Made by a program: the position numbers and the translations under genes | Notes under the pieces: model-generated | What the model was told of the DNA's origin: nothing | The model's input: only the letters and a program-made list of their open reading frames with translations | Database searches by the model: none | From: Sabellastarte sp. h YS-2021 | Lineage: Eukaryota > Annelida > Polychaeta > Sabellida > Sabellidae | Reading direction: 5' to 3' | NCBI GenBank assembly: GCA_964017235.1 | Contig: OZ024930.1 | Span: forward strand, 149,358,221 to 149,422,220 | Length of the DNA stretch: 64,000 bases | In this document: one piece after another, positions 21,908-48,365 of the stretch | Position numbering within the stretch: the first letter of the stretch is position 1 | Layout of the letters: each line of letters begins with the position of its first letter

Positions 21908-22660
21908 GGTGTGTGGGAAAAAATGCCTCCTAGAAAATATGCCTCCTAGAAAATATGCCTCCAAGAAAGAATGCCTCCTGAATATTTCGTGACTAGGAAA
22001 AAATGCCTCCAAAGAAAAAACGTTATTTGAAGTATTATAACACTACAGGTTCACATTACAACTTCAGAGGCTTTTTCATTTTTCCACTTGAGTCTTATAG
22101 TTGCCAATGCCTGTCAAAAATTCAGTCATTTTGCTTAGCTGTACAAATGTACTTATAATAAGTTTCTCTTGCAAGGTTTTGCTGGTTCTTCTCACTCTTT
22201 TGGCTGGCTGCTCAGTCAGGGTTTCCATCATGACAGTTGTCATGTTTTTCTTGTAAGTATATTTCTGCCCCTCCTAGTGCATCTAACTGCAATCAACGCC
22301 TTACAGAGGGGATAACCTGTGTTATAATTTGACAAGAATGCATATTCTAAGCCATAAAGGCCACAAATCCTGGTTTTAAACTGGTCCTGAGTACAGCTGA
22401 AGGGATACCCTTTCAAGAAGATATTTGTAATTTGTACTTTGTGATATTGTACGTTCTGGTTTTGACTATACATATTTGAAAGTAACATGTTTTTGATATT
22501 ATACATTATAGTTTTCATATATAACATGTTTACCAGTTGAAATAACTTTTTTTTCTCAGGAGGCATTTTTTCCTACTCACAAAATATTCAGGAGGCATTT
22601 TTTCTAGGAGGCATTTTTTTCAGGAGGCATTTTTTCTAGGAGGCATTTTTTCCCGGATTC
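21908..22660. mobile_element. Inverted-repeat element, GGAGGCATTTTTTC word, imperfect 9-bp duplication
   Basis: The left end has five copies of AAAATGCCTCC-type words and the right end has five of GGAGGCATTTTTTC on the opposite strand. Flanks are GGGTGGCCT (21899-21907) and GGGTGGCTT (22661-22669), 8 of 9 identical. The right terminus, read inward, is GAATCCGGGAAAAAATGCC. No coding; size 753 bp. Confidence 0.6.
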
Positions 22661-22748: not shown

Positions 22749-23110
22749 GAATGCGGGACATTTGGCTGGTGGACGTTTGGCCAGTGGACATTTGGCCGGC
22801 AGCCAGTTGGCCAGTGGACGTTTTGCCAGTGACTTTTTTGGGGGGTAGGACGATTGGCTGGTGACATTTTTATGTGTTATTTCAATATGGTCCTAAATGA
22901 AATAACTCTTGTAAATATTGCAAACAAGGTTTAATATGTTATTTTTATAATTGTCTCAAAAAAGATCTTTTTTTTGTCATTTTTATTGACACAAAGACAT
23001 AAGACAGCAATAGACCTAAACGGACATCGGACAAAAAGAAACCAGACAAAAATAAACCGGACAGAAAGAAACCAGATAAAAAGAAACCGGACCAAAAATT
23101 TTACTACTAA
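22749..23110. repeat. Left inverted terminal region of the MULE-like element
   Basis: An outer array of GGACATTTGGCTGGT-like words (22755-22830), then GTGACTTTTTTGGGGGG (22828-22845), then the inner GGACAAAAAGAAACCGG array. It is mirrored by 29830-30358. Confidence 0.6.
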
Positions 23111-23219
23111 GACAAAAAGTTTCACTATAAAATTAACTTTAAATTTCAATTAAATTTTCAAGAAATGCTAATTACTTTATGGCTCCTATAAACACCTTGT
23201 GTCAAACTTGCATAATAGC

Positions 23220-23372
23220 AGCTATTTGTTGGAGCCATCCAACCCAATGGCCAATGCAGAGATGCGATTTTAAGGTTTACTAACAACCTTAACCAAGCCA
23301 TTGGGTTACAGTAGTCCGTCCTCCCGCCAAAGAGGTCACATGACTACATTGTTTACCTCATTATTTTTGTTG
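23220..23372. repeat. DIRS 1 inverted terminal repeat, left
   Basis: 153 bp, the reverse complement of 27494-27646 with two differences (GGCCAATGC against GGTCAACGC). Unlike the right side, it has no extension of about 36 bp beyond the repeat. Confidence 0.9.
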
Positions 23373-23415
23373 CAAGTAAAAGAATGACTTGCGGGGAGGC
23401 GGGAGGGAAATTTGA

Positions 23416-23513
23416 GTGTTAGGAAATGGTAAGTATTTCTAATAAAAATTTAAATTACTATTAAATTTTTCAATTTTATAGCGAAATACCCTTACCATTT
23501 CCTAACAGTAGCT
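23416..23513. repeat. DIRS 1 internal complementary region
   Basis: The second half (23474-23513) is a perfect 40-nt complement of the right outer edge. The first half (GTTAGGAAATGGTAAGTATT and on) would pair with the lost left outer edge. In DIRS elements this region templates circle formation. Confidence 0.8.
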
Positions 23514-24048
23514 GAATTCAGCCTTGCAGGACGGTGGGAATTACTTTTAGCAACTACCATCACCAGCCCTACTACCACAACAAGAAAAAACACTGTGAGA
23601 AACTGTAATATAAACAATGTGAGTCTTACATGTAAATAACAACACATAAACTCCAACATTTAACAGTGCGTTTAACATGATTATAACATATAAACGTTAA
23701 AACTGCCAGCACCCACATTCAACATACCTTCAAATAAAAGGTAGAATGTAGATCTCACAATGTTCCAATCTATCTAATGCAATAGTAGAAAGTTGTATCA
23801 ACACAAACTTGAAACTCAACATAAACTTCAAAGCAACTACGGGTCAAACCCCACTTGGCACCACTATCAGCTGACGCATCATACGCTCCAAGCGAGGCTC
23901 AAGCCAACAAAACTGTACAATATATACAGGTGCTACAGCCATCTATCCTGTAAACACATAAAATATATAATGTATAGCCACTCAATACAAAAACAGACAT
24001 CAATACAGCATGAAAAACATAGATATAACAGACAAACTCATTACCTAG

Positions 24049-25290
24049 CTATAAATCTATCACATGCTGAGCAGATACTATAGGGCCCAATTTCAAAATC
24101 TGGCCATTATGCCAACATAGGTCCTTCAGATAGAAATTGGTGAATGTATTGTGAGACTTCCAAAAGCAAGCCTGAAGGATCTCATTCAAAGAAATTCCTC
24201 CTTTAAATGCCAAAGATGCAGCCATTGAGCGGACATCATGAGCTTTCACCTGATACAGCTGTTGAGACTCAGAGTCCGAATTCTCATAAGCCAAAAGAAT
24301 AGTCTGTTTTAACCAAGATGAGATAGTTGCCCTGGAAATATCTCTTGTAAAGCCTTCTTTTATAGCTACAAACAAAAGATTCTTATTCTTCCTCAAATCT
24401 TTTGTCCTGTCCAAATAGAATTTCAAAGCCCTCACCGGACAAAGAGATCTATCTTGAGTCAAACTTTTGTCTAACTGAGGTTTCAATGCTGGAATGACCA
24501 CTGGTTTAATTGCAGCAGGCCCATCTGAAGCCAACTGGTTCTTTGCCAAAAAGGCAGTTGATGGGGCCAAAGTGACTTGAGACCAATTCTCCTTATAACT
24601 GAGAGATGAATGAGTCCAAGCATGAACTTCACTTCTCCTTTTGCCAGAAGCCAAAGTCAAAAGAAAAACTGTCTTAAAGGTTAATAACTTCAAAGAAGCT
24701 TTCCCCAAGGGTTCAAAAGGTTGTTTGGTCAATGCATGGAGTACCAATGCCAAATCCCAAGAAGGTATAGACCTATTTGCTACTGGTTTGTCTCTGTAAA
24801 AGCTTGCTAACAGTCTATTTAGCTCAAGACTTTTAGAGATCTGCTCACCCTTCACACCCAAACCATCTGCAATAGCTGTTCTATAACCAGCAATGGTAGA
24901 TGGCTTGAGATTTCTTTCCTTAAACAAACAGTTAAGAAAATCTGCTACATCTGGAATAGTGGGATTGGAGACGTCCACCTGGCTCTCCTCACACCACTTC
25001 CCAAAAATGGACCACCTTGATTCATAGATTCTCCTTGAGGAGTGTCTCTGAGGCTCCTTAATTCACTTCGCCACCTCCTCTGAGAATCTTTCTGAATATT
25101 CATGACTGACTCCAGATGCCAAGCATGAAGATTCAGGTAAGTCAGATTGTTGTGAAGTCTGTTGCTGAAAGGCTGAGTCAACAGATCCACCCACAGGGGA
25201 AGTCTCAGAGGAAGCCTTGTGGACAGATCCACCAGATCCCAAAACCAAGACATCCCTGGCCACCCTGGTGCAATCATGATGATTTTGCAC
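24049..25290 (-). pseudogene. DIRS 1 tyrosine recombinase (one in-frame stop)
   Basis: This is the integrase of the element. The catalytic pattern is intact: Box A Arg in SGKRRSEVHAW, HDVR in Box B, and the Tyr in NTFTNFYLKDL. The N-terminal SAM-like part has IYESRWSIFGKWCEES. A single TGA at 25063-25065 interrupts the frame in the linker (AK-stop-IKEP); the second DIRS element has Arg there, so a CGA to TGA change is likely. From 24978 to 24049 the frame is open (309 codons). Confidence 0.75.
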
Positions 25291-26740
25291 CTATGGTCTT
25301 TTGAATCACCTGAGGAATGAGAGCCACTGGACAAAACACATAGGCGTCCAGACCCTCCCAAGAGATGTTCAATGCATCTGTTTCCCAAGCTCGACCGTCG
25401 GGGACAGGAGACACATACATTGGTAGCTTGTGATTCAACTTTGTTGCAAACAAATCTACCATTGGTTGATGCCAGCAATGGCAAATTTGATTGAACACTC
25501 GATGATTCAAAGCCCACTCGGTCTGAATCACCTTGTCTTTCCTTGACAGAGAATCTGCCAAGACATTGAGATTCCCTGGAATGTGTTTTGCCCGAATCTG
25601 GATCCCCCTGGCATTTGTCCAAGCCATGATTCTCCAGATTAGTGCACACATTTCTTGAGAATGGGTGCCTCCCTGTTTGTTCAGATAGGCAACCACTGAA
25701 GAGTTGTCTGTGGAAATCAGCAGATTTTGATTCAGAAGCTGATTTTCGAATGATTTTAAAGCTAGAAATACTGCTTTTAGCTCTAGAATGTTTATGTGAA
25801 GTCCTGACTCCACCTGATTCCACAGACCACTGGCTGTGTGATGCTCTAAATGAGCACCCCAGCCTTTTAGGGAAGCATCTGTGAATAGAAGGAGATTGCA
25901 CTCCTTCTGATGAAGTGGGGAACCCCTCCTCAAGTTCGAAAGATTGGTCCACCACTGAAGATGCTGTTTGAGAACCTGGGACACAGGTACTGGGATATCC
26001 AGAGACTGAGGATACCTCCAGTGTGTCTTCAGATACCATTGGAGTGGCCTCATATGCAGACGACCCAATGGTATTGTCTTCTCCATTGAAGCCATGCTTC
26101 CAATTAGTGACATGAGCTTCCTTGGAGATGTTTGAGGAGATTCCAACATGGAAACTGTTTTTTCCAGAAGACGATCAATTTTTGATTGAGTTGGAAAGAC
26201 TAGACCTACCCTGAGGTCGAATTTGTAACCCAAAAATTCGATTTCTTGAGTTGGAATTAAATCTGATTTTTCGAAATTTATGATCCAACCTCTGCACAAG
26301 ATGAATCAACCTGTGGGTATTCCTAGGGAAGTGACCTTTTGAACTGGAGTTATCGCTCTTTTGTCGATCATTTGATAAACCGCCTTTATCAAAAACTCTT
26401 GCTTCTCCCGGTTCAAATATTTGCTCCTTATTGCAGGATAATTTGTCAATGGAGGTTGATTTCTGAAATTCAGACAATAACCCTCCTTCAAAATGGTCAC
26501 TACCCTTGGATGAGCTTTCCTGGCTTCCCATACCTGCCAAAAACTGGACAGACGGCTTCCTGGGCACAGACAGTCACTTCCTTCTGCCACCCCTGCCTCT
26601 GAAAGGCCTAGAGGAGTAGGAACCCCTTCCTCTGTTTCCAGTTGCAGAAGAGCTATTGCTTCTGGCTGATGTTGTTGAAGAATTTTCATGGTAGGGTCGA
26701 AAAGATCTATTCTGAGACCTGCTATCTCTTTTCTCCTCAT
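25274..26740 (-). pseudogene. DIRS 1 reverse transcriptase/RNase H with RT core deleted
   Basis: The RT N-terminus is at 26306-26450 (YLNREKQEFLIKAVYQMIDK to KVTSLG) and the RT thumb region starts at 26299 (CRGWIINFEKSDLIPTQEI). Between them about 150 residues are missing compared with the second DIRS element, including the palm and its YLDD box. RNase H follows with LLFTDASLKGWGAHL, NILELKAVFLAL and STDNSSVVAYLNKQGG, so its D-E-D residues are present. The C-terminal linker has VDLFATKLNHKLP. Without the palm it cannot make cDNA. Confidence 0.8.
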
Positions 26741-27405
26741 GTCTAGCCGTATGCTCCTTCCTAGAATCTCTACCCCTGGACTCCCTATTCACATGGGACC
26801 ACTGAATGAAATTCTTCTGAACTTCAGAGAGAGTATCTACAGGAAAAACCTCATTTGAAGTGAAAGGAGCATTCCTAAGCTTACTAATGTCATCCTCAGT
26901 GACATCCTTGGAACAGCTTTTCAAGTAATTATCCCTCCTACTCAACAACATGTTTGATGCCATGGTCATGGAACTGCCAAGCAAAGAATCTAAAGATTTC
27001 CCCAAAGACTGATTCACTGATGACTGTAACTGAAGACACTCCTGGACATATTCCAGAGCATTATTAAAGTCAGTTTCATTCTCAGCTGATTTTAAGATAG
27101 CAACCAACCAGCGACCACAGAATGAGAAAGACATTCCTACCGAACTGTCTTCTTCATCCAATATGGAGTCATCTATCTTGTCCTTTCCTTTTTGCAAGGT
27201 AGATTCCTTCAAAGATTTCTTACCTTTTGACAGTTTTTCAGTGAGTTTCCGCTTTTGATCTTCCGACAAAGCAACACACAGAAGGCAATCTGCTAGCTTC
27301 ACGACATTTGTAGCAATATCTGTGGTTATCAAAACCAAACATAAGATGTCCACAGAAACTGGATTTCTTAGATTTAGAATCTGATGAATCTTTATTATTC
27401 GCCAT
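26574..27405 (-). pseudogene. DIRS 1 gag-like protein, frameshifted near its N-terminus
   Basis: The natural start is probably the ATG at 27405 (MANNKDSSDSKSKK), giving a Cys/His-rich head SSFCGHLMFGFDNHRYCYK and CRE. A frame change near 27290-27310 is needed to reach CVALSEDQKRKLTEKLSKG. The C-terminus is Ser/Arg/Gly-rich (RGRGSYSSRPFRGRGGRRK), as usual for nucleic-acid-binding DIRS gag. Confidence 0.7.
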
Positions 27406-27493
27406 GATTCAAAAATCTCAATAAAAAATGAAATAATCCCTGAAAACTTAAAACTTCCAAAGATTACCAAAACACGTCTCTACTGTTGATGGC

Positions 27494-27646
27494 CAACAAA
27501 AATAATGAGGTAAACAATGTAGTCATGTGACCTCTTTGGCGGGAGGACGGACTACTGTAACCCAATGGCTTGGTTAAGGTTGTTAGTAAACCTTAAAATC
27601 GCATCTCTGCGTTGACCATTGGGTTGGATGGCTCCAACAAATAGCT
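27494..27646. repeat. DIRS 1 inverted terminal repeat, right
   Basis: 153 bp, the partner of 23220-23372. It is followed outward by 27647-27682, which is copied in the internal complementary region. Confidence 0.9.
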
Positions 27647-27682
27647 ACTGTTAGGAAATGGTAAGGGTATTTCGCTATAAAA

Positions 27683-28397
27683 AGACCCCCTCAACCTGTA
27701 TTCTTTGGACAAAAAGGGATAAAGGGAAAGCCACCTCCAATCACACATAACTGTCAATTGCTATTATTGATAACTGGCATCCAATTCATACAATCTCAAT
27801 TCAGGTAAGCAGCCTTTATTCTATTCAAATTAATCCATTGATTGATTGATTACAGTAAATGTCTTACACTGCATTACATTAATCATTCTATGATCTTTTA
27901 TGTACCTGAGTTGAGTTGTGGCTTTAATCTTCCTTTGAAGTAGGTTTACTGAGTAGAAATGAAAGGAATAGCTACCTACTCAGGACAATTTAAGTTGTAT
28001 ATAAAAGGCTTAAATTTTCTTCCTGATATCATTGACATCTTACCATTTAAACTATGGAGATAATAAAAAGCAATAAAGGTGGTTTGAAGATATGCATGGA
28101 TGGATACATGTATACAAAGCTTTCTGTGAAATCTTCTTCCATTTTCTGGAAATGTTCACAAAAGATTGCTTTATCATGTAAAGCAGTTCTCAGAATAGGT
28201 CTTGATGTAAGTTTTCTATTTTGATATAAATTGATTGATAATGATAATCCACTGCTCATCAGAGAATACAGCCATAAAAAATAAATATCTTTGTTCTAGG
28301 TTCAGAGTCTAAAGTCATACATAAACAATAAGATTATTTTTGATGACCTTTTTAAAACTATACTGTAGCTTACTTTTTTGCATTTTCTATTTTCAGA
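27683..28397. other. MULE-like element interior between DIRS insertion and transposase
   Basis: AT-rich; it probably holds the intron upstream of the transposase exon at 28398. No coding recognised. Confidence 0.5.
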
Positions 28398-29688
28398 ATA
28401 ACAATCCAGAACTTGTCAAAGAACACAGCCATGAAAGCAGTTTAACAACAGTTGAGGTGGCTAAGTTAAAGGCTAGTTTGAAAGAGAAAGGTACTTCATC
28501 CAGAGGCAGACCAGCCCAGATCTTAGCAACCAAGCTGTCTGGAGTCAATGATGAAGTCCGAGCTGAATGTGGTAGAGTGGAAAGCATAAAGAGGTCCATT
28601 CGCATATGTCAGAGGGGTACACTACCCAGGAACCGAAGACCGTCACAGAGTTCAAACTGGAAGATGAGTGGACCAAGACAGCAGGATCCCAAAGATTTCT
28701 CATTCATGATAGTGGATCAGAGAGCCAGTCCCGCGTAGTGGTTTTTCCCAGTGATGAAGCTCTCAGACACCTGTTCAGGCAAGATGAGTGGTTCATTGAT
28801 GGAACGTTCAGCCTTTCTCCAGATATTCCAGCAACTCTACATCATCTGGGCCAAACTAGGGACTTCTGCAGTCACTCTCTTCGGTTAATCCCAATCACAC
28901 TATGAAGAGATCATGCAAGCAGTTCTCAAAAGATGCGAAGAGCTTGGTTTCACTCCTGATCCTACAACAGTGCATCTGGATGTTGAGCAAGCAGCAATTA
29001 ATGCAGTCAAAGCTACTTTTGGCCCCCATGTGTTGACCCTTGGCTGCTTCTATCAACTTACCCAGGCAACCTGGAGGAAGTACAAGAGTTAGGGCTCAGT
29101 CAATATTACAAGGAAAATGGCAGCTTTAGACATTTTTGTGGAATGTTGGATGGGCTAGCCTTTCTGCCTTTATCTGATGTCATTGAGGGAATGTCGTATC
29201 TCTGGAATCTAGATGAAGAATATACAGATGACCTGTTGGATTACTTTGATCACACATATGTGTCAGGATCCTTTAGGCAGATCCAGCGGCCAGCTCTACC
29301 TGGGGAAGACCAACCAACCATCAGATTGAGGAAAATGCCTCCACTTTTTCCTCCACATATGTGGAATGTGCACAATGCTACCCTGAGAGGTGATGCCTGT
29401 ACAAATAGCCTATGTGAAACCTGGAACAATAGTTTTTCACAGCTTGTTGGGAACAAACATCCATCAGTTTGGAGACTTCTCACGCATATTAAAGAAGATG
29501 AGTCCCTCTCAAGACTACAGATCTGCCAAGACTCAAGAGGGGAGCCACCAATAATACGGGTGAAAAAAGCAACTAAAGATCTCCAACAGCGCCTCAGCTA
29601 CTTGTGTTCAGAGATAAAAAGTGGCAACAAATCACTAGAGGAGTTCCTGAAAGGTGTAGGACATTCCATAAGAATCATTGAAGTGTGA
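28398..29688 (+). pseudogene. MULE-type transposase, broken by frameshifts
   Basis: An acceptor TTCTATTTTCAG precedes 28398, so the gene was spliced. Pieces in order: NNNPELVKEHSHES to ESIKRSI (28398-28600); EPKTVTEFKLEDEWTKT to EWFIDGTFSLSPD (28625-28830), which has the MULE Asp in DGTF; DVEQAAINAVKATFG to LTLGCFYQLTQ (28975-29070), the second Asp region; MLDGLAFLPLSD to ETWNNSFSQLVGNKHPSVW (29143-29480), the C-terminal part. At least three frame changes separate the pieces. An AATAAA follows at about 29829. It served to mobilise the surrounding element and cannot make a full protein now. Confidence 0.7.
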
Positions 29689-29829
29689 CATGTTTCAACT
29701 GTGTGTTTACAGACTTGCTTAAGTAATTGCCAAATGGAGCTTTGTACTATTTCTGTGCTATTGTTGTGAATATTCATGTTTAAATGTTGTATATTGTTTT
29801 TATGTTGTTACAAGAAACTTTTTTAAAAT

Positions 29830-30358
29830 AAAAACTTTTTGTCCTACTAGTAAAACTTTTTGTCCGGTTTCTTTTTGTCTGGTTTCTTTTTGTCCGTCCT
29901 TCCATCTAAACATTATAACATCATCAGCACTTTCAAACAATCAGTAATTTTGAGTAGGAATCAAAGGCCCTTTAGTTCTTTATATTTAATCCTGAGCAGT
30001 TATGAGAGACTAAACTTAAAAGGAGTCAGCAATTCTGAGTAGGAATCAAAGGCCTTTTAGTTCTTTTATTTATATAACATCATGTTTATTCAAAGTCATC
30101 ATTTTTGATAAGAAAGTGATAAAATAGAAAAAAACAGTTTATTATATTTGAAACAATATAAAAATGATATTTTAAACTCTTGCAATATGAATACAATTTT
30201 TTCATTTGGGCCAAATAATAAAACAAGATAATAACAAAAATAAATAACATATAAAAAAAGTGGCCAATTGTCCTTCCCCCCCAAAAAAGTCACCGACCAA
30301 ACGTCAACCAGCGAAAAATCAACTGGCCAAACGTCCGCCAGCCAAACAGACTGTGGAA
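29830..30358. repeat. Right inverted terminal region of the MULE-like element
   Basis: It contains the same word arrays in inverse orientation, plus a direct duplication of about 100 bp (AATCAAAGGCCYTTTAGTTC at about 29958 and 30047). Its outermost part (30260-30350) mirrors 22755-22865. Confidence 0.6.
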
Positions 30359-30719: not shown

Positions 30720-31688
30720 TTATGAAGGAAAGTAAGGGAGTTATAAGCACTTTTAACTTTTGCTATCTTTGTTTGACCTTGGAGGAGGGGTCCAAGGCCA
30801 AATCCTACCACACCAAATGATTCCCAGCCCATGATTTCCTGTAGGTTGGTTTACCATCCCAAACCTGTAGGACCAATAACAAGCAAGTTATAAGCAATTT
30901 TAAGTTTGGCTATCCTCAACTGACCTTGAAGGAGGGGTCCAAGGTCAAATCTGACCACACCAAAAGAATCCCAGCCCATGATTTCTTATATGTTGGTTTA
31001 CCATCCCAAACCTCTAAGACCAATAATAAGCGAGTTATAAGCACTTTTAAGTTTGGCTATCCTCGTTTGACCTTGAAGAAGAGGTCCAAGGTCAAATCGG
31101 ACCACATCAACAGATTCTCAGCCTATGATTTCCTATATGTCTGTTTACCATCCCAAACCTCTAGGACCAATAATAAGTGAGTTATAAGCACTTTTAAGTT
31201 TGGATATCCTCGTTTGACCTTGAAGGAGGGGTCAAAGGTCAAATCTGACCACACCAAAAGATTCCCAGCCCATGATTTCCTACAGGTTGGTTTACCATCC
31301 CAAACCTCTAGGACCAATAATAAGGGAGATATAAGCACTTTTCATGACTGACAAAGAAACACCTGTGGCGGCCATCTTGTTTTTCAAAATCAGGCCAAAA
31401 ATATTCCCAGTCAAGATTTTATAATGAGGAACATATCCTGCGAATTTGAGATCTCTACCTGTAATACCCTTTGCTCTAGAGGGCCAACAAAAGTCCTTGT
31501 TTAAAGTTGAATAAACGTCCCTGGCGGCCATCTTGTTTTTCAAAATGAGGCCAAAAATATTCCCAGGCAACATTTTATGGTTACTAATATATTCTGCAAA
31601 CTTGAGAAGGCTAGCTATAATATTTTTTTCATTAGAGCGGTAATGGTGAAATCTCTCTACACACTGCGGCTATCCAGTGGATACAATG
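30720..31688 (-). mobile_element. Helitron-like repeat, copy D
   Basis: Four inverted TGACCTTG/CAAGGTCA modules (30774-31250), then two GCGGCCATCTTG units (31368 and 31524), and the GTATCC-type end at 31670-31688. The hairpin end is missing. It runs straight into the 154-bp satellite. Confidence 0.5.
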
Positions 31689-33880
31689 ATTTACTCAATA
31701 GTGAGAACCTGAAAGTAGCTATTGCTCAGCTATGCCATGACATAGAGGTCTGCAATTTCACTATGATATAACTGACCATAAATTATGTGAATAACATATT
31801 TAAACAAAATACTCTAAATAATATAAAAGTTACAACTGATTTACTTAACAGTGATAACCTCAAAGTAGCTATTACTCAGCTATGCCATGAGCTACATGTC
31901 TGAATTTTTACTATATTATAGCTGACCCAAAAGTAGGTGAACAACATATTTAAGCAAAATACTGTAAATGCAATAGTTTTCAAGTTACAACTGATTTAAT
32001 CAATAGTGAGAACCTGAAAATAGCTATTGCTCAGCTATGCCATGAGCTATAGGTCTGTAATTTCACTATGTTATAGCTGACCCAAAAGTAGGTGAACAAC
32101 ATATTTTAACAAATACTCCAAATGCAATATTTTTCAAGTTACAATTGATTTACTCAACAGTCAGTACCTGAAAATAGCTATTGCTCAGTTGTGCCATGAG
32201 CTACAGGTCTGTAATTTCACTATGTTATAGCTGACCCAAAAGTAGCTGAATAACGTATTTACACAAATTTCTGTAAATTCAATAGTTTTCAAGTTATAAG
32301 TGATTTACTCAACAGTGATAACCTCAAAGTAGCTATTACTCAGCTATGCCATGAGCTACCGGTCTGAAATTTTACTATGTTATAGCTGACCCCAAATAGG
32401 TGAATAACATATTGAAACAAAATACTCTAAATGCAATAGTTTTCAAGTTATAAGTGATTTACTCAACAGTGATAACCTAAAAGTAGCTATAACTCAGCTA
32501 TGCCATGAGCTACAGGTCTGAAATTTTACTATGTTATAGCTGACCCCAAAATAGATGAATATCATATTGAAACAAAATACTCTAAATGCAATAGTCTTCA
32601 AGTTATAAGTGATTTACTCAACAGTGATAACATAAAAGTAGCTATTACTCAGCTATGCCATGGGCTATAGGTCTGTAATTTCACTATGTTACAGCTGACC
32701 CAAAAGTAGGTGAACAACATATTTTAACAAAATACTCCAAATGCAATATTTTTCAAGTTACAACTGATTTACTCAACATACAGTACCTGAAAATAGCTAT
32801 TGCTCAGTTGTGCCATGAGCTACAGGTCTGTAATTTCACTATGTTATAGCTGACCCAAAAGTAGCTGAATAACGTATTTACACAAATTTCTGTAAATGCA
32901 ATAGTTTTCAAGTTATAAGTGATTTACTCAACAGTGATAACCTCAAAGTAGCTATTACTCAGCTATGCCATGAGCTACAGGTCTGAAATTTTACTATGTT
33001 ATAGCTGACCCCAAAATAGGTGAATAACATACGGAAACAAAATACTCTAAATGCAATAGCTTTCAAGTTATAAGTGATTTACTCAACAGTGATAACCTAA
33101 AAAGTAGCTATTGCTCAGCTATGCCATGAACTATAGGTCTGTAATTTCACTATGTTATAGCTGACCCAAAAGTAGGTGAACAACATATTTTAACAAAATA
33201 CTCCAAATGCAATATTTTTCAAGTTACAACTGATTTACTCAACATACAGTACTTGAAAATAGCTATTGCTCAGTTGTGCCATGAGCTACAGGTCTGTAAT
33301 TTCACTATGTTATAGCTGACCCAAAAGTAGCTAAATAACATATTTACACAAATTTCTGTAAACGCAATAGTTTTCAAGTTATAAGTGATTTACTCAACAG
33401 TGATAACCTCAAAGTAGCTATTACTCAGCTATGCCATGAGCTACAGATCTGAAATTTTACTATGTTATAGTTGACCCCAAAATAGTGAATAACATATTGA
33501 AACAAAATACTCTAAATGCAATAGTTTTGAAGTTATAAGTGATTTACTCAACAGTAATAACCTAAAAGTAGCTATTACTCAGCTATGCCATGAGCTACAG
33601 GTCTGAAATTTCACTATGTTATAGCTGACCCAAAAGTAGCTGAATAACATATTTATACGAAATTCTCTAAATGCAATAGTTTTCAAGTTACAAGTGATTT
33701 TACTCAAGATGGTAGTTACTGAAAAGCCCAAAAGTAGCTATTACTCACTTAGCTATTGAGACAGACACCCAAGTTACTCACCATGTTGTAGCTATGAAAA
33801 AAGTAGCTGAATAACGTATTTTAACAAAATGCTCTAAATGCAACACTTTTTAAGTTATAAGTGATTTAGTGCATGATTTC
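31689..33880. repeat. 154-bp AT-rich satellite, about 14 copies, higher-order structure
   Basis: Each unit has GATTTACTCAACAGT, TAGCTATTACTCAGCTATGC, CTATGTTATAGCTGACC and AATGCAATAGTTTTCAAGTT. Units start about every 154 bp (31690, 31838, 31995, 32147, 32303, on to 33697). A variant with CAACATATTTTAACAA and CAACATACAGTACCTGA recurs three and four units apart. One stray copy lies at 52320-52440. Confidence 0.8.
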
Positions 33881-38292: not shown

Positions 38293-38385
38293 GTATAAGT
38301 TGGGGAACAGACAAAAGCCCCCCCCCCCGACACAACCCCCCCCCCCCCTTTTTTAAAAGGTAGGACACAAGCCCCCCCCCCCGGG

Positions 38386-39254
38386 GAATCCGGGACAATT
38401 GGCCGGTAGACAACTGGCCGGTGGACAACTGGCCGGTGGGACAATTGGCCGATGACTTTTTTTGGGGGGGTAGGACAATTGGCCGGTGACTTTTTAAAAG
38501 TTATTTTAATATTGTTTTAAATTTTACAAGTTGTCTTCATATTGCAAATAGAGTCATAGTATGTCTTTTTGCTAGGTTGCACACACTAAAGGTCCCTTGA
38601 TTCCTACTCAGATTGCCTTAAAATTTTCTTTTGTTTAGCTGCTCATAATTAGGAAATCTTATAATAATGATATGCTTATAAATGTATTTTTCATTACCTG
38701 CTTCCATTTATTGTAAAGACCATGAAAGAACCAAAAGCCTTTTTTTTTCCTAATCAGAATTTGTAATTAGGATTGCTGCAAGAGTTTGTATTTGATAACT
38801 ACTCGTGATTGCTACAACAAAGAAGTGAAGGCTCTTTGATAACTACTCAGGATTGCTACAACAAAGAAGTGAAGGATCTTTGATAACTACTCAGGATTGC
38901 TACAATAAAGAAGTAAAGGCTCTTTGTGCCAGTTTTAGTGTTTATATCAATGACAGTGCTTAGCCTAATGATAATGTAATGTTTTGATGTATTGCTGTTT
39001 TATGTTTCATTTGTTTATACCAATGACAGTGCTTAATATGGTTTGATGAATTGTTATAACCTAATTGTTTTACCTGTATACCAATAACACTGCTTGTGAA
39101 ACACTTTGATGAGTTCAATCCTGTATGTTTTGTGTCAATAAAATTGAAAAAAAAAAACAAATTCTAAAACAACTTTTAAAAAGTCACCGGCCAATTGTCA
39201 TACCCCCCAAAAAAGTCACCGGCCAGTTGTCCACCAGCCGATTGTCCGCGCACC
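38386..39254. mobile_element. MITE-like relative of the 22.7-30.4 kb MULE-like element
   Basis: The ends are inverted arrays of GGACAACTGGCCGGT words plus GTGACTTTTTTTGGGGGGG and AGGACAATTGGCCGGTGACT. The stretch next to the left end (38490-38570) matches 22855-22945 of the large element (ATTGCAAA and flanking). It is therefore an internal-deletion derivative of that family, 869 bp. The left terminus is GAATCCGGGACAATTGG. Confidence 0.7.
38789..38927. repeat. Three tandem copies of a 46-bp unit
   Basis: TTTGATAACTACTCAGGATT and GCTACAACAAAGAAGTGAAG recur three times with few changes inside the MITE-like element. Confidence 0.7.
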
Positions 39255-39605
39255 GGGCAAAAGCCCCCCTTATAATTTTTACACACTGTTGACACTTTTA
39301 TTTTTTTCATTTAATGAATGTTAGATTTCCAAAAATGTCATTTGAGAGACTTCTATAAGTTAGGTGCCCCCAAAAAACTGTTTTTAATCATTACATGATG
39401 ATCAAACAATTACATGATGATCAAAAGCCCCCCCCCCCCCCCCCCCCCCCCCCCATCTATTTTTGAAACACTATTGTCACTTTTAATTTGTTTGTCATCT
39501 AAGGAATATAGGTTTCCAGACATGTCATTTGAGAGACTTATATAAATTAGATGCCAAAAAAACACTGTTTTTGATCATTACAATATTTACAATATTTACT
39601 TCCCC
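39255..39605. repeat. Direct duplication of about 175 bp with C-run
   Basis: Two units each start AAAAGCCCCCC, then share CATTTGAGAGACTT and ACTGTTTTTRATCATTAC. A run of about 28 C is at 39427-39454. Confidence 0.65.
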
Positions 39606-39660
39606 CCTCCTTATTTTTGTAAAGTGTATTGTAATTGCCCCTCTTTAACATGTGAATGAA

Positions 39661-40988
39661 GGTGTACCTTGGTTTCGCCACACTTAATTTCGCCATAGTT
39701 TTTTCAGAGACATTGATTTTGCCACAGGGGTACAGTGATCTCGCCACACTTTTTTTGCCACTCTGTTGCTTATGGTATTAGTGCATTTATGATTTTCAAC
39801 ATGAAAAAGCCACACTGCTTCTCAAAGTTCATTGCTTTTTTGCCACACTTTGTTGCCTAATTTTGACTTCATAAATTTTATATGGATTTTTATTAATTAG
39901 TAACAGAAAATATATTATGTAATAATTATGGAGTTTTACAGATTTCACTATGGCTTGGAAAATCATTATTAATCAAGGAAGGTAAATACTGTATTTTTGT
40001 TGCACTAACTGAAATTAAGTTTTTACTGGGAAGCCACAAACACTGGCCATAAACCAAGACTCATATATTTGTCTTTGTAATCCACTATTTCTAGTTATTC
40101 TTTTGAAATATTAAACACTGTTATGAATGGATTCTTGTTTCACCAGAAGCCACATATACTGACCCCTTTCCCAGACTCAAATGTTTGTCTTTGTAATCCA
40201 CTTTTCCAGTTATTCTTTTGAAGGATTAAGCATAGTATTATGAATGTTGTTTCTTCATGGAAAAGGTTACTTATTTTATGATCCACTTTGATGTCTAACA
40301 TCACATCAATTGACAAGGAATGCACAAGCCATAAGTTATAAGTGCAGTTAGGATTATACTTAATTAGGAAAAACAGAAAAATCACTTGGCATCTTTTTAT
40401 AATTATGAATCATCAAAGAATAATTAAGCTCAGTGTTACTAGCCAGGGCTCAAGATGCAGTGGGTAATCCCCAAATGAAAAGGAATTGGACAGTCTATGG
40501 TAATCCACAGAAAAAAACTTGAAAGATTAGTGAAGGATTTCATTAAAAAAATATATCCCTGCTTTCTTACAAGTAGTAGGAAAAACTTAGATTCCAACTG
40601 TTGACGCTAATAATTATGGGACTCAGCAAATGTCAAAAAACAGTTGTGTTTATGAATTCTATTTGAATTCTATTTGGTTATCATGGTAGTATTAACTCAT
40701 TACTGAATTTGATGTAAACCTTATGTGATTTTTGTTTCATGTTTTTAAGTAACTATAGTGCTACTATATAACAGGTGAATTGTTGTTATTATACAATTTC
40801 ATATGTCTGTATTTGTGTTACTAGCAATCTAAAATACAACTTATTATGGCAAAAATCTATAGCGCAAATGAAACATGAAAAATAGTGTGGCGAGATCAAT
40901 GTCCCCCTGTGGCAAAATCACTGTCTCTGAAAAAACTGTGGTGAAATCAAGTGTGGCGAAATCATGTGTGGCAAAATCATAGTAAATC
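39661..40988. mobile_element. MULE-like element, TTTCGCCACA word, perfect 9-bp target duplication
   Basis: GTGAATGAA flanks it at 39652-39660 and 40989-40997. About 100 bp at each end are inverted copies made of TTTCGCCACACTT-type words and sharing GTTTTTTCAGAGACA. The 1.1-kb interior is AT-rich, with two direct copies of an AGCCACATACACTG-like stretch but no coding. Confidence 0.75.
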
Positions 40989-41409
40989 GTGAATGAACCC
41001 CCCCTTTCAAGCCCTCTTGTACAAAGCCCAATAGCTTTGATGTATCTTAAATAGGTGTATTGTTAGGTAAGGTTAAGGTATCTTAATCTGGTAAGATTGT
41101 AAATCATGGTAACACAGACCTGTGAGAAAGTGATTAAAGAATCTTTAACTGTTTCCTGATTACTTATGTTTCCTAATAGCCATTATTTCTGGTCAAATTG
41201 TAATCCATGATATATCTAATAAACAGTTAACAGGTATTAGCATTGTATTTTAGACTAAATATTGAATAATAATGAAACTTATAGTTTTAAATAAATAAAT
41301 TTAGACATAGGGAGGGGGGGGGGGGCTTTTGCCCTCCCCAGGTAGACCAGGGGGGGGCTTTTGTCAGGGGGGGCTTACGTTCTACACTCGTATAAGTTGT
41401 GAGTGCAAT

Positions 41410-41829
41410 TACATAAAGTTACACTTTTTGCATGAAGATATGAAAATAACATTAAGATAATGACATCATTAATGTTGGAATATTAAAGCAGAAATTGCAT
41501 TCTATGACCTCACTGTGACCAGCTCTTAAGACTCTCCATATATGGTTTCCCACTATCTCTTAAAACTTGTAAAGCTGTAAAATCAATAATAAAGAAGATA
41601 TGAGGCAATAACAGAAAAATTGATATTTTATGACCCTAGTTTGACTCATAAGAGGGGATCAGAGAGCTAATTCGACCAGCTACCTAGACTCTCCATGAAT
41701 TCCAACTACAATATATTCTAAAGCTGTAGAAGCAAAAATGCAAAGGACATAGGAGGCAAAAACACAAAATCAGCTATTTTATGACCCCAGTTTGACCCAA
41801 ATGGGGGGGGGTCAGGGGGTAAACGTGGC
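41410..41829. repeat. 160-bp satellite, left block
   Basis: Units with GACTCTCCATATATGGTTTC, TAAAGCTGTAAAA, AGATATGAGGCAA and TTTATGACCCTAGTTTGAC. It continues after the inserted element at 42658. Confidence 0.7.
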
Positions 41830-41838
41830 CGGCTATCT

Positions 41839-42657
41839 GGGGATCATAAAAAAACCCACCATAAAAAACCCCACCATAAAAAACCCACTGTTTTTGGATA
41901 ACCTTCAAAAACTCCACCCTTAAAATTGACAGGGGCTTAAAAAAACCCACTTTTTATAATTTAATGTCTGCTTCTTTAGAATTACTTTGTCTTCCATACA
42001 GGCAGTTATGTCTCATTTTTTACAAATTTAACAATGGCTTGAAAAAATCATTATAACTTGGATGATTTCATTAAAAAAGGTAAATATTTTTGTTGCATTA
42101 ATTTAAATTTAAAAAACTCAATTTAAAACTTAGATTTAAATGGAAGATTTTACTGAGAAGCCACATACACTGTCCCTATACCCAGACTCTGCTGTTTGTC
42201 TTTGTAATCCACTATTTCCAGATATTCTATTGATGGATTAAACATAGCATTATGAATGTTTGTTTTTCACAAGAAGCCACATACATTGGTCATATACCAA
42301 GACTCAATTGTTTATCTTAGTAATCCACTATTTCCAGTTATTCTATTGAAGGATTAAACATAGAAGGGCTTCCCATTGACCAGCACATGCAACATAAGGT
42401 TTTTCTGTTTAATTAAATTCACCATTAAATCACCTGTGAAATAATACTAAGAAACAATATACAATATACTTACTTTCTCTGATGAAATCCAAACAATCCA
42501 TCAGTGTATTGTACTGTCTCCTAAAATGATCAATTCTGTTATAGTGGGTTTTTTTATGCCCCAAGAAATTTTGAGGGTGGGGAGGGTGGGGTTTTTTATG
42601 GATTTTCCAAAATCAGTGGGGTTTTCAATGGTGGTGTTTTTATGGTGGTTTTTTAGA
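41839..42657. mobile_element. MULE-like element, AAAAAACCCACCAT word, perfect 9-bp target duplication
   Basis: CGGCTATCT flanks it at 41830-41838 and 42658-42666, and the satellite reads on exactly across the insertion. The ends are inverted arrays of ATAAAAAACCCCACC-type words. The 819-bp body includes AAGCCACATACACTG and TCTTTGTAATCCACTATTTC stretches also seen inside 39661-40988, so the two elements are related. Confidence 0.75.
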
Positions 42658-42666
42658 CGGCTATCT

Positions 42667-43235
42667 AGACTCTTCACAGAAGGTTTCCCAATACCTCTTA
42701 ATACATTCTAAAGCTTTAACAGCAAGAATAAAGGAGATATAAGGCAAAAACACAAAATCGGCTATTTTATAACCCCAGTTTGACCCATAAGGGGGGGTCA
42801 GGGAGTAAATCTGACCGGCTATCTTGACTCTTCACATATGGTTTCCCAATACCTCTTAATACATTCTGAAGCTCTAAAAGCAAGAATAAAGAAGATATAA
42901 GGCAAAAAGCACAAAATCAGCTATTCTATGACCCCAGTTTGACCCATAAGGGGGGATTGGGGGTAAATCTGACCGGCTATATAGACTCTTCACATATGGT
43001 TTCCCAATACCTCTTAATACATTCTAAAGCTCGAAAAGCAAGAATAAAGGAGATATAAGGCAAAATCACCAAATTAGCTATTTTACGACCCCAGTTTAAC
43101 TCATACGGGGGGGGCTCAGGGGGTAAATCTGACTGGCTATATAGACTTTTCACATATGGTTTCCCAATACCTCTTAATACATTCTAAAGCTCTAAAAGCA
43201 AGAATAAAAGAGATATAAGGCAAAACACAAAATTG
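42667..43235. repeat. 160-bp satellite, right block
   Basis: About 3.5 units with ATATGGTTTCCCAATACCTC, TTAATACATTCTAAAGCTC, AGATATAAGGCAAAA and CAGTTTGACCCATAAGGGGG. The DIRS 2 element follows directly. Confidence 0.75.
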
Positions 43236-43895: not shown

Positions 43896-45660
43896 TTAAT
43901 ACATTATACAATTAAAGCTAAAGAAAGTGAAGAATATATAGACCTTACCCGAAACACCCTGATGAGGTAACGTATACCTAGACCGTGGGATTAGACTCCT
44001 GAAGACTTGGTTGTAGTGGATGTGCCCCCCCTTCTTTTCTTTCCGAGGATGATAGTTCTGAGGGGAAGGGACTAGGACCTGTTGTGCCGCTACTACTGGT
44101 CCCAGATACATATTGTTGTCGTTGTCTGACCAAGTAAGGTCTTTTAGATAGAAATTTGTAAATGTATTGTGAGCTTTCCAGTGACAGGCTTGCATGATCT
44201 GGTCCACCGATACCCCACCGTAAAAAGCCTTAGAGGCTGCGAAGGCCCTAATGTCATGCGCTTTTGCTTGGACCAAGTCCAAGGCTTGTTGGTCTGCTTG
44301 TTTATAACAAAGTAGAATGGTTTGTTTCAACCAGGAAGAGAGAGTAGCGATTCTGATGTCTGAGGTATGTCCTTTCTTGAAGGAGATGAAAAGGAGGGAC
44401 CAAGACCCTCTCAGGTCTTTGGTCCGATCCAAATAGTACCTCAGGGTCCGCACCGGACACAGGGTCCTATCTTCTTTGAATTGTCGATCTAATATGGTAG
44501 TCAAAGCAGGAATAGTCACCGGAGACACACTTTGAGAACCTTCTCTTGCTAGTTGGTTTTTGGCTATGAAGTCAGAAGAAGGGAACAAGGCAACCTTTTC
44601 CCATTGGCCTAGATTAGATACTTTCTTTGCAACCCAGGCATGGATTTCGCTGCAGTGCTTGCCGGAGGCCAATTCTAGCAAGAAAGCAGTTTTGAGGGTA
44701 AGATGTTTGAGGTCTGTGTCTTTCATAGGCTCAAAGGGTGCTTTTGTGAGCTCATTGAGAACAACAGAAAGGTTCCACTTAGGAAGATTTCTGGAACTTT
44801 TTGGACGATCCCTGTGGAAACTGGAGAGTACCCTATGAAGGTCTGCATTGGGTGCAATATGGTGGGCCGTTGGGCCCAAAGTGTCAATGATGGCAGTTCT
44901 GTAACTATCAATGGTCGAGGGGCGCCTGTTTAGGTCTTGGTACAGGTACATGAAAAATTCTGAGATTTGTTTCACAGATGGAGTGGAGAAATCCACCGAA
45001 TTTTCTCTGCACCATTTTTCAAATAGGGCCCACTTTGACTTGTAGATGGTCCTTGTTGATGATTGTTGAGGGGCAGCAATTCTCTCTGCCACCTCCACAG
45101 AGAAGCCTTGTTCTTGGAGTTGTCCGCTCCTAGACACCAGGTGTGGAGGTTGAGCGGTTGCGGATTGTTGTGGAACACATACTTGTGGGACTGTTTGAGT
45201 AGCGTCGTTGACACTGGGAGTTGTAGTGGGATCTCTGTTGAGAGCTGCACTAGGTCCCAAAACCAGGGCATCCCTGGCCAGCCTGGGGCTATTATGATGA
45301 TCAGGCAATGGCATTGCTTGATCTTTTGGATCACCCTGTGAAGGAGAGCCGTCAGGAGGGTAAACATAAGCAGTGAGACCCGTCCAGTTTATGTTCAGAG
45401 CATCTATGTCCCAGGCCTTTGGGTCTGGGATTGGAGACATGTAGAGAGGGAGTTTGTGGTTCAGATGAGTGGCAAACAGGTCCACATCAGGAGTGAACCA
45501 CTTCCGGCAGATCTGTTTGAACACCTGTGGATGCAGTGACCATTCTGTTGACTGCACTTGGTTGGACCTGGATAGGAGGTCAGCCATCACAGTCAGACAC
45601 CCCGGAATGTGTCTGGCCTTTAATGTTATGTGATAGTGGTGGCACCAAGTCATGATCTTC
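43896..45660 (-). pseudogene. DIRS 2 RNase H end and tyrosine recombinase
   Basis: An open frame of 585 codons. It begins in the RNase H tail (HITLKARHIPG to MADLLSRSNQ), passes through VDLFATHLNHKLP, and runs into the recombinase (IYKSKWALFEKWCRENSVDF). Box B is intact (KAHDIRAFAAS, CHWKAHNTFTNFYLKDL, with Tyr). Box A reads SGKHCSEIHAW where element 1 has SGKRRSEVHAW, so the expected catalytic Arg is replaced. Long and open but probably catalytically dead. Confidence 0.8.
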
Positions 45661-46784
45661 CACAGGAGAGCGCACCTCTCTACTAAGTGAGTTCCTCCTT
45701 GTTTGTTTTATGTAGGCTATCACTGTAGAGTTGTCCGTTGCAACTAGAACTGTTTGGTCCTGGCACTGGTCCTTGAAATTTCGAAGGGCCAGTGAGACCG
45801 CCTTCAACTCTAGGACACATATGTGTAGCCTTTTTTCCTGGTCTGACCAGACCCTGGGTAGATCTTTGATCTAAGTGAGCGCCCCAAGCTTCGTTTGAGG
45901 CGTCTGTAAAGAGTTGGATACTGTGGTCTTTGGGATGAAGGTCTGCACCTTTCATCACGTTTGCAGGATTCTGCCACCAATCCAGGTGTGCAGAAATGAC
46001 ATCTGTCCAAGGAAGGAGGTTGTCCAGTGACTGAGGATATCTCCAATGCTCCTTGAGATGAAACTGAAAGGGCCTCATGTGAAGGCGTCCCTCCAGGACC
46101 ATCTTCTCTGTTGAGGCAAGCAACCCAATTAGCGACATCAAACATCTTGCAGTCAAAACATGTTTTGACTTGAGTCGTAGGATCAAATCCTGAAGTTTGA
46201 GCCATCTCTCTTGAGTGGGTCTTACAAGGCCTGAATCTAGATGGTATTCATAGCCCATGAACGAAAACACCTGAGTAGGATTCAGTTCTGATTTTTCCTG
46301 ATTTATTATCCACCCCAAGGACTGGGTTAGGTCTACCACTGCCTGAGTGTTCACTTGGGCTTCTTCCTGAGACTGGGACCTGATCAGCCAGTCGTCCAGG
46401 TATTGGTGAAGTCTGAGTCCTCTGGAGAGGGCCATGAGCTTCACTTCCTTTACGATCATTGTAAAGACCTGGGGGGCTGTGGCTAGTCCGAAAGGAAGGG
46501 AGGTGAACTGGAACACCTGTGACCTGTGGCAAAACCTTAGCAATTTTTTTCCTTGAGTTTGGGTGGATGGGGATGTGAAGGTAAGTGTCCGATAGGCCTA
46601 TCGATGATACCCATTCCCCTGGAACCAGGGAGGTCCTGATGGACTCTGGAGTTTCCATTTTGAACTTTTCTACATGTAGAAAAGTGTTGAGCCTGCTTAA
46701 GTCTATTACTGGCCTCCACCTTTGGCGAGGCTTGGGGACTAGAAACAGGCGACTGTAAAACCCGAGAGATTTTACATTTTCCAC
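45661..46784 (-). pseudogene. DIRS 2 reverse transcriptase with frameshifts
   Basis: The first part (46543-46784) has SLGFYSRLFLVPKPRQRWRP and VIDLSRLNTFL; a frame change near 46540 leads to FQFTSLPFGLATAPQVFT and the catalytic box HQYLDDWLIRS, then LGWIINQEKSEL and RNase H LFTDASNEAWGAHLDQ. More frame changes follow near 45810-45850 and 45700, separating LELKAVSLAL and ATDNSTVIAYI. The palm is complete here, which shows what element 1 lacks. Confidence 0.8.
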
Positions 46785-46879
46785 CCTTTCTATAGCGTTC
46801 TTTGACAGGAGAGACTTGATACAATCCAGTCTCTCCTGAAAGAACGGAGGTGACCTCCTACTGGTGGACTGAGTGAGGC

Positions 46880-48003
46880 TTTGGAGGAGTCATTGGGGGG
46901 AGGGGTTACCACGACCTCTTCTCCTATTATGGGGTCGAAAACGACCCCTGGAGCCTCTGAAGTTTGGTTTTCCCCTGCCAGAGAAAAACTGGTTACTGTT
47001 TTAAGAGGAATTGCCCCCATAGGGACGTTTCATGTAGGAGCCTCTTTTCTTGTGGGGACCACAAAAGGGCTTATTCTGATAGGGTCCAAAACCCTGAGAG
47101 TCTTTTGAGGTGCCTTTTTAAAGAAGGAAGTCTTCACCTTCCTTGACTAGTTGAGACTTGAACAAGGAAGGCGGCCAAAAGGATGCAGTCCTGAGTTCCT
47201 GACGTCTCTTTTCCCCTAAATGTGGTGGTAACAGGGTCATTTCGGCTTCGCGCCTAAGCAAACCGGTGTTGCCCATGGAATATAAGTCCCTCTGGAATAT
47301 ATGAGCAAGGGATTTGACATGTCAAGGCCCTGTGCTGGATAATGAGTGTCTTGTTCCAGATATCCAGGTACTCACAGGCTTCCTCGTATCCACACTTTGC
47401 TACCTTTTCAGGGTCAGCACCTTTCCTGATCTGAGATTTGACCTTCTTAAAGGTCAACTTCAAACTATGTTGGCACTTCTCCAGAGTGGAATTGCAGGAA
47501 GAAGTCTTGGCAAAGGTGGTAGTAAAATTGAGCGTGGAGATATTCTGTCTTGCCTGGTGTTCCAATTCCTTGAGAATTGGTAGGGGAACCTTGCCCATAG
47601 GGGCCCCAGAGGGCTTAGGAGAAATACAGATCTTAGCAAAGCCTGTATTAAGTTCTTGCATCTTGTCCTCATAACAAGGTTGTCCCACCTTGTACCACTT
47701 GGCAGTGGATGGAGGAGCTCTGATGTATTTACCCTCAGGTAAATTTGCTGCTTGAAAGTCTTGATCAAACTTATCAAAGGCATCTTTGATAATGGAATTC
47801 AGAGGCAGCATAGATGAAGGGCCTCTTGGCCTGAGCTCCTGCCTGCCTTTCTCATCGTCAAGGCCCATGACCGCAGTTGTTGAACACCTGGGTAGGCAGT
47901 CTCTAGGGTCTGGAAGTTTGAGGATACGCCTGAAGGTATCCACCTTCTCTGCATACTGAGAGGGGATGTCAGTTGAGCTTTCTGGTAGACAGGTGTGAAA
48001 AAA
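46880..48003 (-). pseudogene. DIRS 2 gag-like protein, truncated and broken
   Basis: 47254-48003 encodes SSTDIPSQYAEK then VDTFRRILKLPDPRDCLPRC to EACEYLDIWNKTLII. A basic tail follows in other frames: FGPYQNKPFCGPHKKRGSYM, then a TAA stop, then FFSGRGKPNFRGSRGRFRPH and RRRGRGN. The Arg/Gly tail is the expected nucleic-acid-binding end. The N-terminus is lost with the 5' truncation. Confidence 0.65.
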
Positions 48004-48365
48004 TCGCTCATAAATCAGTCATTTTTAATCGGATCGCTCCCAAAATCTAATCAGCTGGCATTTTTGATAGTATGAACATGTGTGTATAATTACAAGCCTT
48101 TGCGGTCAAAAGATTTTGCTGAGCGGCGATGACGGGCGGGTGTAACCAAAAAAACTATTTTTTGATCATGTGACCTTGATAAAGATCAAAGGTCAAATTT
48201 CAGCATGTGGATAAATTTTCTGATGCTTAAGGTATATAACTGCCAAATATGGTTTAAAAACTTCCAATAATAAGGGAAATATTCAAGGGAGACCATAATG
48301 CGGCGGCGGCGAGGAAACTGACGCTAAACCAAATAAGCGCCCTTTTCAGGGACGCTACTCCCTAC
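48004..48365. repeat. Dispersed repeat tail with terminal hairpin
   Basis: It contains GATCATGTGACCTTGATAAA, CAAAGGTCAAATTTCAGCA and GCGGCGGCGGCGAGGAAAC, then AAGCGCCCTTTTCAGGGACG, which can form an imperfect hairpin. Similar 3' tails end other repeats in the window. Confidence 0.45.

Follow-up and report, generated by a model that had tools for sequence, protein, structure and literature searches.

The 64,000-nucleotide stretch analysed here (hereafter the window) lies at positions 149,358,221 to 149,422,220 of contig OZ024930.1 (assembly GCA_964017235.1; contig C4 in what follows) in the 1.79 Gb genome of the sabellid annelid Sabellastarte sp. h YS-2021, and carries nested transposable elements whose inverted ends are short arrays of one reiterated word. 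These elements are best read, with a probability of roughly 0.8, as cut-and-paste Mutator-like elements (MULEs) of a Phantom-like type, with a FLYWCH domain and Foldback-like ends, in which the word is specific to the transposase lineage and is the predicted site of the FLYWCH domain. The evidence fits the membership of most window elements in one MULE group. The plan itself is already known and the elements are new families of a known kind; what is new is the presence in one genome of at least 19 words of shared form, the retention of two unlike tips across words, and the link between word and transposase.

The arrays, inverted ends and 9-bp repeats described by an earlier reading made from the sequence alone (the sequence-only reading) are present between positions 38293 and 42666 of the window, where three 9-bp target duplications are exact and one border is shifted by one base. 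The outer element, which is non-coding, occupies 38302-41389 (plus strand, as are all window features given here), has ends GGGGAACA+GACAAAAGCCCC... and GAGTGTAG... with expanded C-runs, and is flanked by GTATAAGTT at 38293-38301 and 41390-41398. Its duplication had been given as TATAAGTTG, shifted by one base; the border was moved and the duplication is best read as GTATAAGTT because copy L004, which has both ends of the outer element and a different 9-bp duplication, ATTATATAT, starts at GGGGAACAG. Two elements are nested inside it, one at 38386-39254 with the word GGACAATTGGCCGGT (tips GAATCCG and GGTGCGC) and one at 39661-40988 with a CGCCACA word (tips GGTGTAC and GATTTAC), the latter between copies of GTGAATGAA at 39652-39660 and 40989-40997. 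The element with the word ATAAAAAACCCACC (41839-42657; left tip GGGGATC, right tip indistinct) is flanked by CGGCTATCT at 41830-41838, within satellite DNA, and at 42658-42666; CGGCTATCT recurs at 42816 because the insertion adjoins a 158-bp satellite. This satellite spans 41560-43233, and the element is inserted into it.

Further upstream, the element at 21908-22660 has the word GGAAAAAATGCCTCCT and tips GGTGTGT and GAATCCG, and the one at 22749-30343 the word GGACGTTTGGCCAGT and tips GAATGCG and GGCTGGC. The latter contains a third element, at 23022-29903, with the word GGACAAAAAGAAACC, an imperfect duplication recognized by eye (ACCTAAAC / ATCTAAAC) and a broken FLYWCH-MULE transposase (remnant 28054-29688, with the first half of the FLYWCH domain from 28054 and a C-terminal MULE transposase frame at 29002-29688). 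The sequence-only reading took the elements at 21908 and 22749/38386 to be built like the others. The flanks of 21908-22660 (GGGTGGCCT / GGGTGGCTT) contain one mismatch, and no target duplication was found at the flanks of 22749-30343 or of 38386-39254. Tandem Repeats Finder (TRF) reported arrays of GAAAAAATGCCTCCTA at 21917 (inverted at 22590), GGACATTTGGCCAGT at 22756, GACAAAAAGAAACCA at 23030 (inverted at 29856), GGACAACTGGCCGGT at 38393, TGTGGCGAAATCAAG at 40937 and CATAAAAAAACCCAC at 41845, so that the window words measure 15-16 bp, with the exception of the AAAAGCCCCCC family, in which C-runs have grown.

The window transposase has 151 matches listed in the genome, and 50 loci were examined, comprising the 30 best of these matches and 20 chosen for spread of identity. 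An array follows the transposase within 600 bp at 46 of the 50 loci and has a period of 15 or 16 bp in every case, in a scan that showed periods of 12-18 bp only; 41 of these 46 arrays have 4.2-5.2 units (full range 2.7-7.0), and by eye L080, L081 and L084 have spaced 15-bp units instead of a tight array. With the period filter off, the longest downstream repeat has a period of 15 or 16 at 33 of the 50 loci and of 31-33 at 16, and is absent at one; the 16 include ten family-4 loci where a 32-bp repeat is longer than the 16-bp array. This 32-bp minisatellite (L059-L064 and L066-L069) lies between the family-4 transposase and the right end, mostly separate from the word array. In the available part of the account of aphid Phantom elements, a minisatellite after the gene is likewise noted (PMC6446971). 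Left arrays were found independently by TRF at five loci (L040, L059, L061, L065, and L066), and all five consist of the locus's own right word, which upholds the earlier statement that both ends share a word.

The MULE identity proposed from the duplications is supported by transposases with FLYWCH and MULE domains found between such ends. The 486-amino acid (aa) protein P0001 of L066 has a FLYWCH domain at aa 5-65 (E 8e-11) and a MULE domain (PF10551) at aa 185-282 (E 3e-10), and among solved structures it comes closest to the FLYWCH domain 2rpr (E 2e-5); PF10551 is also matched by the frame of L049 (E 7e-10). The 228-aa transposase frame of the window has no Pfam match and was assigned through its similarity to the genome loci. 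The first half of the FLYWCH domain was found by tblastn in seven word families (families 1-6 and 15), that of family 5 being read from L099, in a frame judged by its length to be the same as that of the L072 transposase. Among L047-L055, and in the family of C1:70794723, the transposase copies are identical over the compared part (the seven rows L048-L054 are identical, with many equal scores), which suggests recent activity.

The sequence-only reading had suggested testing whether a MULE transposase, such as that at 28398-29688, is linked to each word family. A single transposase for all window words was rejected: GGACAAAAAGAAACC is the only word that the transposase at 28398-29688 accompanies, and other words go with different transposases located elsewhere in the genome. 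Another candidate, the ZSWIM3/FAR1-type MULE of L030 as carrier of the word GGACAATTGGCCGGT, was also rejected, as the array lies outside the boundary where L029 and L030 part. The true transposase lineage of this word is revealed by L101, a transposase fragment flanked by GGACAATTGGCCGGT arrays and by the 9-bp duplication GACTGGGAA, which the window element 38386-39254 matches by eye in its ends and interior. This window element also contains a 44-bp tandem repeat (38791-38926), seen by eye in L101 too.

Read inward, the words of families 1 to 7 are GGACAAAAAGAAACC, GGACAAAAAGAACCT, GGACAAAAAGTATCT, GGAAAAAAGGCCTTGT, GGAAAGAAAGCCTGGT, GGAAAAAAGGGGCCTA and GGACAAGTTCCCATCA, the last being on the tail of a chimera described below; those of families 8 to 15 are GGAAAAAATGCCTCCT (the word of the 21908 element in the window, shared with transposase loci L075, L077, and L079), AGAAAAATGGCCTCCT, AGAATAGTGCCCTCCT, GGACAAAACCCCGGA, GGAACCTTGCCCTTCA, GGAGAAAACCCCTCA, GGACAATTGGCCGGT and GGACGTTTCGGCCAC. 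Together with four words from elements that have no linked transposase they make 19 that were aligned in one register; the CGCCACA, ACCCACC, and C-rich 38302 words have no GGA start and were left out. The aligned words measure 16 bp (11 of 19) or 15 bp (8 of 19) and share a form: GA at positions 2-3, A or T at position 8 and G or C at position 10 in all 19, A at positions 5 and 6 in 15, and C at positions 11 and 12 in 14 and 15, respectively.

The word follows the lineage of the transposase. In a tree whose 50 rows are L101 and 49 loci, the 14 words present need 13 changes, the minimum possible; eight of these words occur in more than one locus and six in single rows. The tree unites families 1-3 (99), families 4-6 with 8 (87), and families 9-10 (99), and the family-5 clade also contains L072. 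This locus (C4:65221470-65223012), considered together with L070 and L073, has a family-5 transposase that is 97.4% identical to L070 over 614 bp. A switch of word in L072 with its transposase unchanged was considered and rejected, the family-5 similarity ending near the stop codon; L072 is a chimera, because that similarity stops and is followed by the C-terminal tail of another MULE with the tail's own word. Similarity among transposases is correlated with similarity among words (r=0.257, p=0.021 for all 14 words). From the second test onward L072 was left out, and the correlation is then r=0.498 (p=1e-4, n=13), r=0.387 (p=0.010) when families 2 and 3 are omitted as well, and r=0.569 (p=0.0017) for the nine words represented by several copies or by both ends. 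The relation is genuine, though loose between distant lineages, since several nearest pairs of transposases, in families 11, 12, 13, and 14, are not nearest in word. The suggestion that words and transposase change together is thus sustained, and no work tying array words to transposase lineage was found in the literature searches made.

The same architecture recurs in copies outside the window. The genome was searched with the left end of each of the elements at 39661, 41839, and 21908, and all 40 candidates scored per query matched; these counts are lower bounds because the first-look candidates were more numerous (221, 447, and 1836, respectively). In most rows listed, copies of the 39661 family begin at base 1 or base 13 of the query and those of the 41839 family at base 1 or 22; most copies of the 21908 family begin at 11-15, the place of the first word, and so do not include the tip. 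A complete copy consists of a target duplication (mostly 9 bp), a 7-bp tip, the array, the interior, the inverted array, a different tip and the duplication again. Duplications were tested by comparing the flanks of 28 rows, of which three begin at inner units and two are window elements, with 756 swapped flank pairs. Perfect 9-mers no more than 3 bp from the place expected for a 7-bp tip occur in 8 of 28 rows (L007, L008, L042, L047, L058, L059, L089, and L101) and in none of the swapped pairs, which supports the 9-bp duplication; 8-mers at the expected place occur in 8 rows vs. 2 swapped pairs, and matches within a looser window in 13 rows vs. 9. The length of the duplication is 8 bp in L061 and 10 bp in L042, both inside the 8-11-bp range (mostly 9 bp) of the MULE superfamily.

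Tips were surveyed in 24 rows, leaving out the three inner rows and L001, with a one-base shift allowed and the CGCCACA register moved outward by 3 bp. A GA[A/T]T tip at one end is paired with a GG tip at the other in 17 rows, two GA[A/T]T tips occur in none, two GG tips in one (a degraded window copy), and six rows are indistinct. Both kinds of tip recur across words, the CGCCACA word included. Genome-wide, the tip GAATCCG followed by GGAMAA and a second GGAMAA has 682 matches vs. 7 in a test against chance. The two-unit CGCCACA pattern has 92 matches vs. none for its reverse, and among neighbouring array pairs less than 8 kb apart 15 converge and none diverge.

Several observations weigh against this reading of the elements. 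Of the 28 rows, 20 show no perfect 9-mer within the strict limits, the register of the words was set at GGA by the analyst, and the correlation between word and transposase is weak (r=0.26) as long as the chimeric L072, a family-5 transposase with a different word, is kept. The pitch is not rigid: in the first 100 listed of the 682 GAATCCG matches, the first-unit distance is 15-16 in 39, 17-18 in 46, 14 in one, a two-unit 30-34 in 11, and other in three. Among the 50 loci, L087 has no array of its own. Families 11 (L105) and 13 (L106) show only the second half of the FLYWCH domain, as a weak match, and the domain was not found in the fetched pieces of families 8 (L104) and 12 (L107). A transposase was not found for the 38302, 39661, and 41839 families, and a comparison of the CGCCACA and ACCCACC words with transposases by nearness of genome positions gave nothing convincing.

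As a control, the 30 loci with the strongest PF10551 matches were inspected. These are mostly of another kind, with ZSWIM3/FAR1-like N-termini in the three that were scanned. The loci extend no more than 1.5 kb from the domain, which leaves many of their ends out of view; in the four family groups whose borders were visible the ends are plain. The 26 other tandem repeats in these loci have scattered periods, two of them at 15-16, and L026 and L027 contain short 16-17-bp repeats of uncertain belonging. A second MULE clade can be recognized here (L010-L012, L028-L030, L032, L034, and others), with a ZSWIM3_N/FAR1-like N-terminus, an RNaseH-like domain, a weak SWIM match and plain ends.

Inverted ends built of repeats of about 15 bp are known from the TU elements of sea urchins. 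Muta, Tm1, and Phantom elements were compared by their published descriptions, in the parts available, and the claim that no described group is built in this way does not hold, since the Muta1 and Muta5 elements of Aedes aegypti (PMC5225508) and Tm1 of Meloidogyne (PMC3169594) share the plan closely. Muta1 and Muta5 have FLYWCH-MULE transposases (504 and 554 aa), 8-9-bp duplications, many non-coding copies, and ends with a tip of 10 or 8 bp followed by nine repeats, either 12 bp long with 3-4-bp spacers or 15 bp long; such terminal repeats are carried by 10 of 12 long-ended Aedes families, and Muta1, in which the 10-bp tip precedes nine copies of the 12-bp repeat, is mobile in yeast (PMC5225508). 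The annelid elements differ in having about five units, 7-bp tips of two unlike kinds and transposase frames of up to about 490 aa, and the available part of the mosquito account contains no comparison of repeat words with a transposase tree (PMC5225508). Tm1 resembles them in its 496-aa transposase (FLYWCH at 5-66, MULE at 197-294), 13-15-bp repeats, mostly 9-bp duplications, unlike 7-bp terminal motifs and an extra unit further inside; it differs in its mostly 14-bp units and other tip letters, and is one family, called inactive by its authors (PMC3169594). Phantom MULEs share the FLYWCH-MULE transposase, 8-10-bp duplications and, in some, Foldback-like ends (PMC3169594, PMC6446971); Dupeyron and others describe Phantom elements with FLYWCH, SWIM, or no finger (PMC6446971). 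Composite inverted ends with internal tandem repeats, which define Foldback elements, are present here, Foldback being a shape and not a clade (PMC3169594). A bivalve survey of 39 curated MULEs, in its available part, makes no comparison of word arrays (PMC10294476). The VANDAL elements of Arabidopsis are likewise MULEs in which a DNA-binding protein (VANC) and tandem target motifs change together; unlike the present ones, these motifs are internal, within non-coding parts, and serve against silencing, whereas here the motifs are the ends (PMC5735166).

Each end consists of a 7-bp tip beside the target duplication, followed by a head-to-tail row of about five 15-16-bp words, the word being the probable recognition site of the FLYWCH domain. 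By analogy with Muta1, which is active in yeast, several transposase subunits may be loaded next to one another on each array, and cutting would take place at the tips, of which one starts with GAAT or GATT and the other with GG. Short non-coding copies, which retain only the ends, would be moved in trans. The transposase lineages are probably largely separate, because they carry different words. The link between word and lineage, together with a control of pitch that is lost only in A- or C-runs, fits selection on the array. A bolder proposal, somewhat less probable than even when its three parts are taken together, is an evolving address code combined with a transposase chain on opposite faces of the DNA and non-equivalent ends. 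The words would be versions of a common site, (G/A)GA-M-AA-W-W-N-S-C-C, with a variable right half determined by variable FLYWCH residues, and the arrays of the two ends would be rewritten as the FLYWCH domain changes, giving many mutually deaf transposon families per nucleus; the near-constant pitch of 15-16 bp (about 1.5 turns, in the mosquito too) may reflect a chain of transposases in which adjacent members sit on opposite faces; and the unlike tips may make the two ends of the element non-equivalent.

The arrays could instead be neutral minisatellites grown by slippage inside ordinary inverted repeats and copied along, the word having no role. Microsatellite growth had been set by the sequence-only reading against its own proposal, and it is real in the C-runs of the 38302 family and the A-runs of some first units, which have clearly grown; the number of units also varies (2.7-7.0 among 46 arrays), and one family has its separate 32-bp repeat between gene and end. 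However, neutral growth is an unlikely source of unrelated words near one length, 16 bp in 11 and 15 bp in 8 of 19, when the control repeats are scattered with 2 of 26 at 15-16, or of arrays that adjoin tips at both ends and words that accompany a transposase. The pitch is moreover the same in the mosquito, either as 15 bp or as 12 bp plus 3-4-bp spacers, a sum made here from the available description (PMC5225508). Binding of an anti-silencing protein or a host transcription factor finds a parallel in VANC21, whose binding motifs (YAGTATTAY) accumulate and change in the form of tandem repeats, as far as the available part of that account goes (PMC5735166). It is improbable here: the arrays are inverted and stand at the very ends, 7 bp from the duplication, the transposase encoded by the frames examined has a DNA-binding domain itself, and the ends are retained in non-coding copies.

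Least probable of all, and hardly to be expected, is that several unrelated superfamilies have grown alike. Foldback-like ends do accompany different transposases, Galileo being a P-type element in the part of the account available (PMC3169594), and the 38302, 39661, and 41839 families have no linked transposase; but 13 words (families 1-6 and 8-14) fall within one transposase tree, family 15 is joined to them by a listed match and a FLYWCH piece, and the recurrence of the tip kinds extends to the CGCCACA word.

Other features of the window include a tandem array at 31682-33868 with a 155-bp unit repeated about 13 times and higher-order periods of about 310 and 464 bp. Phage-integrase-like frames (weak Pfam match) with reverse-transcriptase-like neighbours on the minus strand occur at 23280-27600 and 43896-48018, one of these regions being inside the 23022-29903 element; we take them to be probably DIRS-like elements.

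For a transposon to survive, its enzyme and its ends must continue to match, and the way in which this specificity changes has mostly been inferred from few cases. One genome with at least 13 transposase lineages that have their own words, several of them in identical copies, plus non-coding families, provides material at hand for working out the FLYWCH residues that choose each word and how the arrays at both ends are rewritten. With so many versions side by side, the Phantom-like MULEs of this annelid could reveal how the address tags change in step with the transposase.

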